IMG/VR virus record: IMGVR_UViG_3300042542_002320
Coordinates: 1 to 34,867 of that record
Length of the DNA stretch: 34,867 bases
Reading direction: 5' to 3' (one strand)
Source: a virus
Position 1 is the first letter of the stretch. Each line of letters opens with the position of its first letter. This document shows positions 9,068 through 15,741 of this stretch, piece after piece. Made by a program: the position numbers and the translations under genes. The notes beneath the pieces are model-generated. The model was not told where the DNA came from, ran no database searches, and saw nothing but the letters and a program-made list of their open reading frames with translations.

Positions 9068-9217
9068 ATGTGCGCCTGCGAGGCTTACATCACTATTGCA
9101 GAAAGTAACCCGATGACCAAAGACAGCCAAAAGACGGTGAATAAGATTAAAGAAAAATGTATTAAGATAATTGCATTCTATGTAGATGAGATGTACGAAG
9201 AATTGTTTGAAGATTAA
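9068..9217 (+). CDS. Small acidic/helical hypothetical protein, start uncertain
   Basis: The only ATG in this frame (9068) gives 49 residues (MCACEAYITIAESNPMTKDS onward) ending EELFED. The frame is open back to 8981 with coding-like acidic residues upstream (EQATDEPIEEFEVELTTRQE) but without ATG, GTG or TTG. The real start may therefore be a rare ATT/ATA at 8996-8999, one or two bases after the phosphoesterase stop, or the region may be made by frameshifting from the upstream gene. No family recognised. Confidence 0.55.
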   Translation: MCACEAYITIAESNPMTKDSQKTVNKIKEKCIKIIAFYVDEMYEELFED

Positions 9218-9233
9218 TTTTAGTGAGTCGGGG

Positions 9234-9260
9234 TAGCGGGTAGCAGCGAGTTAGCAGTAA
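9234..9260. repeat. 27-bp direct repeat, copy 1 (gene-end element)
   Basis: Starts with TAGCGGGTAGCAGCGAGTTA and matches 9923-9949 at 24 of 27 positions, the first 20 identical. Each copy lies directly behind the stop codon of a minus-strand accessory gene (9261 and 9952). Read on the minus strand it carries the same TAAC core as the neighbouring palindromes, suggesting a half-element of the same family. Confidence 0.8.
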
Positions 9261-9452
9261 TTACATATAACCACCTTCGTGCAACCTAATATATGCTTCA
9301 CAATCTGCCAATCCACCTTGATATACTTTATTCTCTTCCACCGTATCAGGCTCGCTATCGTAAGCACTTGTTCGTTCTCCGTATGTGGTTATAATCTCAA
9401 TAACTTCATAAGTGTTGTCTTGAAAAAATCTAACTTTATATTCTCTTTTCAT
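9261..9452 (-). CDS. Small accessory protein
   Basis: 63 residues: MKREYKVRFFQDNTYEVIEI ... ending YIRLHEGGYM. The N-terminal half looks like a small beta-sheet; the end is of a type common in small phage accessory proteins, but I cannot name a function. It is the last member of the leftward array, starts just outside the palindrome at 9467-9558 and stops just before the 27-bp repeat at 9234, so it is packaged like a cassette between two repeat elements. Confidence 0.7.
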   Translation of the reverse strand: MKREYKVRFFQDNTYEVIEIITTYGERTSAYDSEPDTVEENKVYQGGLADCEAYIRLHEGGYM

Positions 9453-9466
9453 AATAAGTAACTGTT

Positions 9467-9558
9467 GCTAACAGCGTATATGTGAAATACGCTATTAAGG
9501 TTTGTATTTAATTTTAAAGTTTCTGCTATGCGTACTTCACATATACGCAAACCGTTAG
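9467..9558 (-). repeat. attC-like palindromic element C
   Basis: A 19-bp inverted repeat, GCGTATATGTGAAATACGC at 9474-9492 and its complement at 9530-9548 with one mismatch, separated by a 37-bp loop. Outside the stem lie CTAAC and GTTAGC, so read with the genes it runs AAC ... GTT, with extra unpaired bases (GGTTT) on one side only. This is the geometry of integron attC sites, though the full 7-bp consensus ends are not met. The stop codon of the gene at 9555-9797 lies in its end. Confidence 0.75.
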
Positions 9559-9797
9559 TGGCAAGGTGGCACAATGACCGCCCAAAATCTAATCTCGTTA
9601 TGATTGTAAGCCCAACCGCTACCGTTCCAAGTTTCCCAATGTATCTTACCATCTTTTCTGCATATCAAATACTTTCCGTAAGCGGTTGGGCGTGTTTCAA
9701 TTTTGTTCCAATCGAAAGCCACCCAGCAGCTAACAGCAGTTTGCCGCAATGGCGGGTTCAGTTCTTCGTTCATAGCTTTGTAATCTCTTTCGTCCAT
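9555..9797 (-). CDS. DUF551-like small protein with a repeat-encoded N-terminus
   Basis: 80 residues. Residues about 25-80 (WVAFDWNKIETRP, YGKYLICRKDGKIHWETW, AYNHNEIRFWAVIVPP) match the small Trp-rich beta domain seen in DUF551-type phage proteins; function unknown. Residues 1-24, including NPPLRQTAVSC, are encoded by the loop and one arm of palindrome B (9729-9886), so the start codon at 9797 sits inside the repeat. Either the repeat supplied the start or the natural start was lost when the element inserted. The stop TAA overlaps palindrome C. Confidence 0.7.
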   Translation of the reverse strand: MDERDYKAMNEELNPPLRQTAVSCWVAFDWNKIETRPTAYGKYLICRKDGKIHWETWNGSGWAYNHNEIRFWAVIVPPCH

Positions 9798-9886
9798 TGT
9801 TCTTCGTATTAAAGTTTAGTAATATAAATCCGCCACTGCGCAAAGCCACCAAACGTTATCGTTATGTTGATAGCAACAAAACGATA
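9729..9886 (-). repeat. attC-like palindromic element B with outer inverted repeat
   Basis: Read on the minus strand: GATAAC at 9860-9855, a stem with TTTGCG and CAGTGGCGG, a long loop holding the start of the 9555-9797 gene, the returning arm CCGCCATTG/CGGCAAA, then GTTAGC at 9734-9729. The arms pair with bulges and one G-U. A second inverted repeat TATCGTT/AACGATA (9857-9863, 9880-9886) extends it. It is clearly related to element A. Confidence 0.75.
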
Positions 9887-9922
9887 ATTGTCAATTACTT
9901 ACTGTTATGGTTAATCCAAAAC

Positions 9923-9949
9923 TAGCGGGTAGCAGCGAGTTATCGGCAA
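9923..9949. repeat. 27-bp direct repeat, copy 2 (gene-end element)
   Basis: Second copy of the 9234-9260 repeat with three differences. It lies immediately behind the stop of the gene at 9952-10170 and carries CGATAAC on the minus strand, as in elements A and B. The 36 bp between it and element B hold no gene I can see. Confidence 0.8.
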
Positions 9950-9951
9950 CC

Positions 9952-10170
9952 CTATGAACCGACCTCATAATCATCAAAATCAGTTAGTGACCTTGCGTGG
10001 ACATGACCTCTATCATCATGTGCTTTTATTGCTGCATCCCAAGTTCTGCCATGTTGGTCACGCTCTAATTCATACGCTCTATCTATTATTTCTATTGGAT
10101 AGTTTTTTAATAATTGTTGGTCGTTTAGAACCTCTAACAACCACTCTACTGCTGTTTGTTTTTTTGACAT
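9952..10170 (-). CDS. Small accessory protein (KQTAVEWL family)
   Basis: 72 residues: MSKKQTAVEWLLEVLNDQQL, then a helical stretch with ERDQHGRTWDAA and an acidic end. The start KQTAVEWL and the following IDRAYELERDQH segment are familiar from small proteins scattered through Bacteroidetes phages; function unknown. It is bounded by element A upstream and the 27-bp repeat downstream. Confidence 0.75.
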   Translation of the reverse strand: MSKKQTAVEWLLEVLNDQQLLKNYPIEIIDRAYELERDQHGRTWDAAIKAHDDRGHVHARSLTDFDDYEVGS

Positions 10171-10217
10171 TGTTTTTATTTTAAATTGTTAATAATCATT
10201 CCGAAAGAAGGGCAGCC

Positions 10218-10324
10218 GATAACCGCAGTTTGGCGCAATAGCCACCAACGCTGCAAGCCAACCCTTCGGCTACTGTCGCCAAGCTGCCTAACGTTATCGT
10301 TTCCCCGATCTCAACAAAACGATA
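10218..10324 (-). repeat. attC-like palindromic element A with outer inverted repeat
   Basis: Read on the minus strand: GATAAC at 10298-10293, extra bases GTTAG, then GCAG, TTGGCG and CAGTAGCC, a 19-base loop, and the returning arm GGCTATTG, CGCCAA, CTGC, ending GTTATC at 10223-10218. The two sides pair with small bulges. A second inverted repeat TATCGTT/AACGATA lies at 10295-10301 and 10318-10324. About 70 bp, including spacing, resemble element B. Confidence 0.75.
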
Positions 10325-10503
10325 CTGTGATGAATACATTTGTCCCCGAATAAGTTTTCTCGTGCAGTCAATACCCTAGCACATCCAAATTGAGCGCAGG
10401 TTCTTTCTGGGGTGCCATTAAATGCACGGGATAACAGGCTATCTACTGCAGGCTTCGCTTCCCGTGCTTTGGCGTTGGCTTCGTTTGCTTTGTCCCAGGC
10501 CAT
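10294..10503 (-). CDS. Small hypothetical protein with repeat-encoded C-terminus
   Basis: 69 residues: MAWDKANEANAKAREAKPAV, then CAQFGCARVLTARENLFGDK and a basic end. Ala/Lys-rich helix at the front, three Cys and two His in the second half (CAQFGC, CIHH) that could bind a metal. Its last ten or so residues and TAA stop are encoded within element A, so the C-terminus is probably the product of fusion to the repeat. It begins two bases after the stop of the upstream gene. Confidence 0.6.
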   Translation of the reverse strand: MAWDKANEANAKAREAKPAVDSLLSRAFNGTPERTCAQFGCARVLTARENLFGDKCIHHSIVLLRSGKR

Positions 10504-10505
10504 GG

Positions 10506-10874
10506 CTAATCTTCAAATGTTGTGATGATGGGTAGGTCGGTTATATGGTCAAATGGCAATACTACTAGGTATCTGCCATCCCTCACCACCTTCCACTTCT
10601 TCTTAGCTACGGGGATGCGGTAGTAGTTGCAAGTAATTGCCGTATATTTGTCTCTTTCAGCTTCAACTACAACCATTCCTCCGCTGGTAAACCCTATGAA
10701 CTTTCTAATTCTCCAAAATTCTGTTTCGTCATCCCTCACCTCAATCTCCTGCCCCCATTGTGGCATATTCTTGCGTTCTTCCATAAGGGCGAGGTAGGCA
10801 GCCCATAAGCTACCTCTTGAATTATACTTTTGATTAGCTATTTGTTCCAACAATGTTTCTAGTGCTTTGCTCAT
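10506..10874 (-). CDS. Hypothetical accessory protein
   Basis: 122 residues: an N-terminal helix (SKALETLLEQIANQK), then a beta-rich C-terminal half with FWRIRKFIGFTSGGMVVVEA and KWKVVRDGRYLVVLPFD. I recognise no family and see no membrane or secretion signal. Eleven bases separate it from the gene upstream; it is part of one leftward transcription unit. Confidence 0.7.
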   Translation of the reverse strand: MSKALETLLEQIANQKYNSRGSLWAAYLALMEERKNMPQWGQEIEVRDDETEFWRIRKFIGFTSGGMVVVEAERDKYTAITCNYYRIPVAKKKWKVVRDGRYLVVLPFDHITDLPIITTFED

Positions 10875-10885
10875 GTGTTTATTTT

Positions 10886-11125
10886 TTAAAGGTTTCGTTT
10901 AAACGCCCAAACTCTCCTACCGTTAGATTGTCCAACTGTTCGAATTGATAATCCTTTAGACAATATCCTAATCCTTGCACAAGCGATAGAGTTGTTTACG
11001 ACTGTCTTATTAAAATCTTCATAGTTTAGAAATACGCTATCTCCATCGTTTAAGCTGATTAAAAAATTTACCAACTCTTTGCTTTGTTTTTTTGGGAATG
11101 GTATATTTCTTTCAATGCTTAACAT
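10886..11125 (-). CDS. Small hypothetical protein
   Basis: 79 residues: MLSIERNIPFPKKQSKELVN, a segment DGDSVFLNYEDFNKTVVNN, and a basic end RIRILSKGLSIRTVGQSNGR. The arrangement (short domain with a basic C-terminal half) resembles small phage nucleic-acid-binding proteins, but no family is recognised. Member of the leftward accessory operon. Confidence 0.7.
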   Translation of the reverse strand: MLSIERNIPFPKKQSKELVNFLISLNDGDSVFLNYEDFNKTVVNNSIACARIRILSKGLSIRTVGQSNGRRVWAFKRNL

Positions 11126-11136
11126 AGTTTTATTTT

Positions 11137-11535: not shown

Positions 11536-11629
11536 TACGAGGGGCAGGATTTGAACCTGCATGATAACACGCCCTATTTATTAACGGTTGTTATCTACGT
11601 ATAGCGTCTACCAATTCCGCCACCCCCGT
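11536..11629 (-). tRNA. tRNA-Leu-like gene with anomalous anticodon/variable region
   Basis: On the minus strand: acceptor ACGGGGG (11629-11623) pairs with CCCTCGT (11543-11537, one G-U); the D-arm GCGGAATTGGTAGACGC is typical of tRNA-Leu; the T-arm GCAGG-TTCAAAT-CCTGC is perfect; discriminator A, CCA not encoded. The 42 bases between D- and T-arm, about ten more than usual for tRNA-Leu, do not form a normal 5-bp anticodon stem with a 7-base loop. They contain instead GATAACA/TGTTATC, a perfect 7-bp stem with a 19-base loop. The anticodon is therefore unclear (a UAA Leu type is possible). Confidence 0.65.
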
Positions 11630-14483: not shown

Positions 14484-14668
14484 AAACAAAACAAACAGGT
14501 ATCTACCAACGGCGACCAAAGGATGATGTAATTAAAAATCATGCGCAAATAATTAAACTTAAACAACAAGGGCATAGCCTTATAAGTATTGCCAAAACAT
14601 TGGGCACCACTTATGGCAGCGTTTTGTATGTTGTTTATCGTAAAGAAAATAACGGGTTATGGCAATGA
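14480..14668 (+). CDS. Small helix-turn-helix protein
   Basis: 62 residues. After a basic start (MKTKQTGIYQRRPKDD) residues about 22-50 (AQIIKLKQQGHSLISIAKTL, then GTTYGSVLYVVYR) form a helix-turn-helix resembling those of resolvases and sigma region 4. It is likely a DNA-binding regulator or recruits the methyltransferase whose gene starts on its stop codon. Confidence 0.65.
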   Translation: MKTKQTGIYQRRPKDDVIKNHAQIIKLKQQGHSLISIAKTLGTTYGSVLYVVYRKENNGLWQ

Positions 14669-15741
14669 TGAAACACATCGGACTATTTGAAGGCATTGGC
14701 GGTTTCTCACTTGCAGCACGTTGGATGGGATGGGAAACCATTGCTTGGTGCGAGTGGAACGAATTTGGACAAAAAGTATTAAAACATCATTTCCCAAAAG
14801 CACAACCACATGGCGACATTACAAAAACAGACTTCACTATTTACAGAGGACAATGCGACATCGTTACTGGAGGATTCCCCTGCCAACCATACAGCCTTGC
14901 AGGCAAGCGAAAAGGCAAAGCAGATGACAGACATCTCTGGCCAGAAATGCTTAGAGCAATTAGAGAAATTCAGCCACGTTGGGTTGTGGGCGAAAACGTT
15001 TTCGGCCTTGTTAATTGGGATGGAGGGTTGGTATTCAACGAAGTGCAAGCTGAATTGGAAGCTGCGGGGTACGAAGTATTCCCGTATGTATTGCCAGCTT
15101 GCGCCGTCAACGCTCCCCACAGACGGGATAGGATTTGGTTTGTTGCCTACAGCAACAGCGCAAGACTTCAAAAGGCGCGGAGCGAACAGCAAGCAACAAG
15201 GATTGAGCAATACGGAGAACTGGACTGGACTACTCCCAACCCCGACAACGCAAGAAACGCCACACATGGATGCAGAACTGACAGAAACGGGGAGAAGGAA
15301 AGCAGCCAACGGGAACAGCCACAGTTTAAATCTAATCGACTATGCAATACGAGGTTTGCTTCCAACAGTTCGAGCAAGAGCAGCCGGGGGGAATTGCAGC
15401 AACGACAGGGGGAAGGGGAATTTAGAGGATGTGATAGCAAAGGGGTTATTACCGACACCAACAGCGGACGACAACCCAGCAAAGAACACGGGCAAACGGA
15501 ATCAGGACGGATTGCAGAAACGGGCATACCAAGCGACTGGCAAAACTTCCCAACTCAATCCCCCATTTGTTCTGGAGATGATGGGATTTCCGCCCGATTG
15601 GACTCTATCACCTTTCCTAAATGGAGAAACGAATCCATAAAAGCAGCAGGCAACGCCATCGTTCCACAAGTAGCATTTCAAATATTTAAAGCAATAGAAC
15701 AGTATGACATGGACACAAAGATACCGCCAATCGCACAATGA
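14665..15741 (+). CDS. C5 cytosine DNA methyltransferase (Dcm type)
   Basis: 358 residues from the ATG at 14665, which overlaps the upstream stop (ATGA); an ATG two codons upstream is also possible. Motif I GLFEGIGGF, motif IV GGFPCQPYSLAG with the catalytic Cys, motif VI GENVFG, motif VIII RRDRIW, and motif X KAAGNAIVPQVA are all present, so it should be active. It methylates cytosine C5 in a specific sequence, probably to protect phage DNA from host restriction. The segment between motif VIII and the C-terminal block (the target-recognition region, about 15170-15540) is poorly ordered, rich in Ser/Arg/Gln/Asn. The region from codon 49 to the end is overlapped by a 276-codon frame in +1. Confidence 0.9.
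   Translation: MMKHIGLFEGIGGFSLAARWMGWETIAWCEWNEFGQKVLKHHFPKAQPHGDITKTDFTIYRGQCDIVTGGFPCQPYSLAGKRKGKADDRHLWPEMLRAIREIQPRWVVGENVFGLVNWDGGLVFNEVQAELEAAGYEVFPYVLPACAVNAPHRRDRIWFVAYSNSARLQKARSEQQATRIEQYGELDWTTPNPDNARNATHGCRTDRNGEKESSQREQPQFKSNRLCNTRFASNSSSKSSRGELQQRQGEGEFRGCDSKGVITDTNSGRQPSKEHGQTESGRIAETGIPSDWQNFPTQSPICSGDDGISARLDSITFPKWRNESIKAAGNAIVPQVAFQIFKAIEQYDMDTKIPPIAQ
14810..15640 (+). CDS. Overprinted gene inside the methyltransferase, GLLPT-repeat protein
   Basis: 276 residues in the +1 frame, entirely inside the methyltransferase gene, ATG start (MATLQKQTSLFTEDNATSLL). Residues about 47-105 are ordered-looking: CLEQLEKF, HVGLWAKTFSALLIGMEGWY, CKLNWKLRGTKY, CQLAPSTLP. GLLPT then repeats at residues 110, 140, 182 and 212, followed each time by TATAQD, PTTQE or PTADD types. 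The C-terminus SQLNPPFVLEMMGFPPDWT (247-265) echoes the LxPxxxxxxMGFPxxW segment of cytosine methyltransferases. An 831-base open frame with repeated motifs in AT-rich DNA argues for real coding. I associate similar sequences with phage methyltransferase loci. Function unknown. Confidence 0.65.
   Translation: MATLQKQTSLFTEDNATSLLEDSPANHTALQASEKAKQMTDISGQKCLEQLEKFSHVGLWAKTFSALLIGMEGWYSTKCKLNWKLRGTKYSRMYCQLAPSTLPTDGIGFGLLPTATAQDFKRRGANSKQQGLSNTENWTGLLPTPTTQETPHMDAELTETGRRKAANGNSHSLNLIDYAIRGLLPTVRARAAGGNCSNDRGKGNLEDVIAKGLLPTPTADDNPAKNTGKRNQDGLQKRAYQATGKTSQLNPPFVLEMMGFPPDWTLSPFLNGETNP

Follow-up and report, generated by a model that had tools for sequence, protein, structure and literature searches.

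A short region of a Bacteroidota phage genome most likely consists of two integron-like cassette arrays that are shuffled in trans by a recombinase of the bacterial host. The region lies in a 34,867-base IMG/VR virus record, hereafter called the window, that has matches to terminase, portal, major head protein, and tape-measure. A preliminary description of this DNA had proposed a possible cassette array made of attC-like palindromes and small accessory genes. This reading is borne out by three findings: The two ends of a cassette are complementary in a manner specific to that cassette, one cassette has been exchanged between viral contigs at its GTT and AAC boundaries, and arrays of the same elements in Bacteroidota adjoin a tyrosine recombinase.

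Elements, cassettes, and flanks in the window

Twenty training elements went into the covariance model R1, and element B is the only one of them from the window. Because neither A nor C was used in the alignment, their E-values (Table 1) constitute independent evidence. When the window was searched with filters off, R1 matched all three AAC...GTT palindromes where the preliminary description had placed them, and the best strand was minus in each case. Element coordinates are those of the covariance-model match.

Table 1. Features of the two mini-arrays (positions in the window)
Feature	Positions	Strand	Remarks
Whole layout	9234-10324	minus	three imperfect palindromes and three small genes
Flank of mini-array 1, TATCGTTTTGTTGAGATCGGGGAAACGATAAC	10293-10324	minus	AAC at 10295-10293; unit repeated before B; similar flank in L071
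attC-like element A	10215-10300	minus	R1 46.9 bits, E 1.2e-11; fold z -2.9
Cassette 1, GTTATCGGCTGCCC ... gene ... AGGGTTGCCGATAAC	9939-10223	minus	own ends complementary, 10/12
Cassette 1 gene, 72 aa (MSKKQTAVEW...)	9952-10170	minus	function unknown
Mini-array 1 end, TCGCTGCTACCCGCTA	9923-9938	minus	same 16 nt as mini-array 2 end
Flank of mini-array 2, TATCGTTTTGTTGCTATCAACATAACGATAAC	9855-9886	minus	repeat of unit preceding A
attC-like element B	9726-9862	minus	R1 95.7 bits (B in training set)
Cassette 2, GTTAGCTGCTGGGTGG ... GCCACCTTGCCACTAAC	9554-9734	minus	own ends match 8/12
Cassette 2 gene, 80 aa	9555-9797	minus	begins inside B (leader fusion), ends at C
attC-like element C	9464-9561	minus	R1 33.7 bits, E 4.2e-8; fold z -4.5
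Cassette 3, GTTAGCAACAGTTAC ... TTACTGCTAAC	9250-9472	minus	own ends match 9/12
Cassette 3 gene, 63 aa (MKREYKVRFF...)	9261-9452	minus	weak match to phrog_5957, unknown function
Mini-array 2 end, TCGCTGCTACCCGCTA	9234-9249	minus	then phage sequence common to relatives from 9216 down

The ~130-nt element has a common plan: YAAC, then ~5 unpaired bases, one side of a long stem, a loop, the other side of the stem, 1 unpaired base, and GTTR. Extra bases on one side only had been reported before, and the asymmetry is sharper than claimed, with ~5 unpaired bases after AAC versus 1 before GTT (5:1). In the R1 training alignment, 96.3% of pair cells are formed, and two-sided changes number 17 versus 5.0 in shuffles. 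The stem shows compensatory changes, and the imperfect palindrome with its one-sided extra bases is maintained by pairing. The relatedness of A and B that had been noticed earlier extends over 48 nt at 77%, and both also match one model. Element C has a 73% relative in L041. The single-strand folding proposed in the preliminary description was run on the minus-strand DNA. Elements A and C beat their shuffles, whereas B does not (z -0.9) because it contains a ~70-nt loop.

Three elements do alternate with small genes, as had been described, but the gene at 9555-9797 is not simply located between two elements. Its ATG (9797) and N-terminal codons are held in the loop of element B. Viral relatives of its protein share all of the protein, residues ~1-27 only, or residues ~21-80 only. 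A Pfam search with the cassette 1 protein gave no match.

A 32-nt flank (TATCGTTTTGTTG..ACGATAAC) stands ahead of A and again ahead of B, and both mini-arrays are closed by a flank of 16 nt. The flank of mini-array 1 and its 16-nt end are probably the two halves of the original target site. Positions 9217-11131 are without DNA counterpart in the relative L003, and all elements are absent from L002 and L003, which are close relatives of the window phage (RecT 93-94%).

Several further searches were made around the region. Its DNA had no match among named phages, and the consensus element had none among named plasmids and phages. An exact 18-mer from the array end yielded zero matches in viral contigs, and a phosphoesterase query found zero relatives. 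Promoter and terminator scans gave counts not above shuffles. The only match in an Rfam scan of the window at gathering scores was a tRNA, and a tRNA gene match is located near the cassette region (11536-11629, minus strand). The window also carries a DNA methyltransferase gene and an overlapping second frame of 276 codons on the same strand (14659-15741 and 14810-15640).

Cassette ends and exchange between phages

The ends of host cassettes are matched to each other. For cassettes in host arrays, the 12 bases that follow GTT agree at 8.4 positions with the complement of the 12 that precede the AAC of the same cassette, versus 4.3 for swapped ends. Perfect complementarity over the first seven end bases is seen in 23 of 50 host cassettes versus 0.6% of swaps. 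Within one element, the two sides agree at 2.5 of 7 positions, which is the chance level and resembles swapped ends. Elsewhere, 11 of 12 positions match in L041 and in one of the two L071 cassettes. This pairing between the two ends of each cassette fits the prediction for circular cassettes with one folded site.

Exchange at the predicted boundaries is evident in the viral contig L262. Cassette 1 recurs there with a protein that is 99% identical and with the same ends, and the breakpoints fall at GTT and AAC. A different element precedes the cassette in L262, and a full element follows it where the window has TCGCTGCTACCCGCTA. Relatives of the cassette 1 gene are also present in L266-L268, where they lack cassette ends and are plain phage genes. 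The leader of element B (MDERDYKAMNEELN.P) is joined in frame to other genes in five records (L339, L340, L341, L344, and L347). A check for elements located mostly away from genes found them between exchangeable genes instead, which leaves the cassette reading unrefuted.

The Polaribacter phage isolates P12002S and P12002L have flanks that are ~99.6% identical, whereas their cassette blocks differ. The differing block of P12002S contains all four of its R1 matches. These four elements of a cultured phage are at NC_028763 37995-40627 (L367), and the annotated starts of methyltransferase gp53 and of gp59 fall inside elements. P12002L gives a weak R1 match of 24 bits.

Host arrays and the linked recombinase

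The phage elements supplied a pattern for a genome scan, which returned at least 118 matching stretches. The titles among the matches listed include Flavobacteriales, Cytophagales, Chitinophagales, Sphingobacteriales, and Bacteroidales. R1 has a match in 30 of 30 genomes chosen after the pattern scan. The preliminary description had suggested a search beside other genes in Bacteroidetes genomes, and elements are indeed present there in cassette arrays. In an even draw of genomes from the phylum of Flavobacterium ichthyis, 48 of 118 have R1 matches at E <= 1e-8. In the control phylum of a Brocadiaceae-titled seed, R1 matched 0 of 78 other genomes.

Host arrays can be very large. The closed chromosome of Bacteroidota bacterium SSA2 (L117 genome, G030) carries at least 110 elements on one strand over ~0.5 Mb (C1:3486000-3983000), and in Flavobacterium ichthyis, elements lie on a single strand over 30 kb. 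The arrays run in one direction and each cassette has its own site (e.g., G030, G015, and G010). The central sequence of the element is strongly conserved phylum-wide. Some carriers of elements are titled Clostridium, Competibacteraceae, Methanobrevibacter, and Brocadiaceae (L130, L138, L167, and L115). The L138 genome sorts into the phylum set of Flavobacterium ichthyis, and the record titles or the binning may be wrong.

Most host arrays examined have a tyrosine recombinase at the start of the array in gene direction, and this gene usually faces the array. The distance from the recombinase stop to the first cassette is 26-126 bp in 10 of 15 loci, and the sequence in this interval is similar only between related loci. 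The recombinase is not co-directional with the array in L252, L253, and L259, and some array-bearing genomes have no recombinase seen nearby. In a phylogenetic tree, the 22 array recombinases fall into a single clade (100/98) apart from XerC/D of the same genomes. This clade groups with Vibrio IntI (98/86), with a long branch and a single IntI included.

The catalytic motifs of IntI are kept in the array recombinase. When compared with the IntI structure 2A3V, however, the array recombinase has ~17 residues where IntI has 59, a difference of ~42 that indicates that the IntI-specific insert is missing. The integron-integrase profile TIGR02249 matches in two pieces around the insert position and stays below its cut-off. 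Two of four array recombinases tested pass the cut-off of NF040815 (XerA-type). The structure used was an alignment-based prediction (pLDDT 79.8), and a single-sequence fold (pLDDT 44.5) was set aside. A fold search with the predicted structure returned a strong match to XerA-type structures in a list filled by catalytic-domain matches.

One to three extra N-terminal modules of ~75 residues each are present in the recombinases of L243, L245, L153, L187, and L131. These modules have weak matches to HARP (PF07443, E 0.0025-0.009) and DUF5710. HARP domains bind forked DNA, and the HARP-like modules may read the folded site.

Phage and host elements differ in their relation to genes. Genes beside host elements have one direction in 70 of 75 cases, whereas those beside viral elements have the opposite direction in 38 of 44. 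An ATG in the element with a frame of at least 25 codons past GTT is seen in 33 of 47 viral versus 6 of 75 host elements, although the viral count is biased since many cases came via a leader-bearing query. In a set chosen without this query, clear cases are B of the window, two elements in L071, and two in P12002S.

Virus records have 0-8 elements each, and 30 of 31 are without a PF00589 recombinase. The window likewise has no PF00589 match, consistent with the earlier remark that the phage has no integron integrase, so a recombinase of this kind is not in the same replicon as the window array. Since the enzyme is missing from the window and from almost every virus record examined, the phages probably borrow the host recombinase, and mobilization in trans by the host would be the simplest reading of the sequences.

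Interpretation and comparison with known systems

Array 1 is ordered flank-A-cassette 1-flank and array 2 flank-B-cassette 2-C-cassette 3-flank. Each cassette spans GTT to AAC, and under the proposed mechanism an excised circle would join the complementary ends around one attC-like hairpin. We infer that a Bacteroidota host tyrosine recombinase would act on these elements as folded single strands, cut them at G|TT, and insert, remove, and shuffle cassettes in trans. A phage element sits upstream of the gene it serves. Since B supplies an ATG and leader codons, as some other phage elements also do, an incoming cassette gene should be translatable as a leader fusion. The pool of swappable genes appears to be common to phages and hosts. 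Several points count against this explanation: The free energy of B is no better than that of shuffles, the canonical attC boxes and the IntI insert are lacking, the recombinase is not co-directional in three host loci and was not seen near the array in some genomes, and some of the exchanges could be homologous via RecT.

An ordinary CALIN, that is, canonical attC cassettes of known families left by a classical IntI integron, would have in common the AAC/GTT core, the hairpin, the arrays, and an IntI-like recombinase. Phages are known to carry canonical CALINs, and for one of them, Polaribacter phage P12002L, Qi et al. (2023; PMC9892861) describe recombination of attC2 with IntI1 in E. coli; attC2 is not equated here with any R1 element. 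However, among 119 scored elements, RYYYAAC is found in 8 and GTTRRRY in 5, although the inner boxes are kept (YAAC in 118 and GTTR in 119). The full consensus ends are thus unmatched, as the preliminary description had already reported. The linked recombinase is also short at the insert and below the integron-integrase cut-off, and IntegronFinder 2 reports one complete integron in Bacteroidetes, from Salinibacter (PMC9024848). An ordinary CALIN is therefore unlikely. Both the R-box consensus and the IntI insert were looked for and are lacking, and for this reason the system is not filed as a canonical integron. The earlier attribution to integron cassettes holds for an integron-like variant, which appears to work as integrons do, but not for a canonical integron. 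In addition, genes in the phage point the opposite way from those of host cassettes.

It is very unlikely that the pattern reflects phage mosaicism, with homologous or RecT-type recombination on repeated elements and no site-specific recombinase now acting on the phages. The window phage does encode a RecT-like protein, A and B are similar, and the phages are without a recombinase. However, cassette 1 is nearly identical in L262 and the window while both flanking sides differ, which leaves little homology to recombine on, and end complementarity is preserved for each cassette. It is hardly credible that the palindromes belong to a dispersed repeat family (MITE, REP, or terminator) and simply happen to lie between genes. 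Strong phylum-wide conservation of the central sequence is expected for an inserting repeat, and the elements are intergenic. This proposal conflicts with cassette-specific complementary ends, uniform array strand, a linked recombinase, movement of a whole gene with its ends between different elements, and a terminator scan that is not above shuffles.

Beyond integron-like arrays mobilized by the host, a broader proposal is plausible yet still somewhat doubtful. A phylum-wide lineage common to Bacteroidota and their phages might have a recombinase that is sister to IntI, with the insert replaced by HARP-like site-reading modules, and phage elements that serve as start-codon leaders for captured genes. 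If this is true, then leader fusions would let newly captured genes be expressed without a start of their own. Complete integrons have been described as rare in Bacteroidota, and the present findings point to widespread gene capture in this phylum, which standard tools seem to miss, with phages as carriers of cassettes of the same type. The IntI insert is considered essential in integrons (PMC8138268, PMC9668308), and this system offers a test of whether it is truly needed for cassette recombination. Exchangeable genes of hosts and phages could also be mined with the 130-nt element as a simple handle.

The literature searched, in which subscription papers were thinly covered and preprints lay outside, held no description of a host system of this kind in Bacteroidota. 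The arrays resemble IntI integrons and CALINs in their GTT/AAC-bounded cassettes, one-sided asymmetric attC-like hairpins, and one-direction tandem arrangement, and they resemble IntI integrons in having an IntI-like tyrosine recombinase that adjoins a candidate attI. Unlike IntI integrons, they have R boxes off consensus, a conserved ~130-nt element with a 5:1 bulge, end pairing that is specific to each cassette and reaches about 12-15 nt, and a recombinase without the IntI insert and with extra N-terminal modules. In Treponema, the integrase points toward attI (PMC3607928); by their description, these chromosomal integrons differ in that attC has typical R and L boxes.

Phage-borne attC clusters are already known. 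From the available text of Qi et al. (2023; PMC9892861), the phages described there are similar in being virulent, in carrying attC cassettes without an integrase, and in having methyltransferase cassettes, and P12002S is a sister isolate of one of them. Host arrays in Bacteroidota, reversed gene direction, and start codons inside elements go beyond that text. With regard to the enzyme, XerA-type recombinases (NF040815; PDB 5hxy and 4a8e) are alike in profile match and strong structural match. In contrast to them, the array recombinases form a separate clade that lies closer to IntI than to XerC/D, have additional N-terminal modules, and are located beside cassette arrays.
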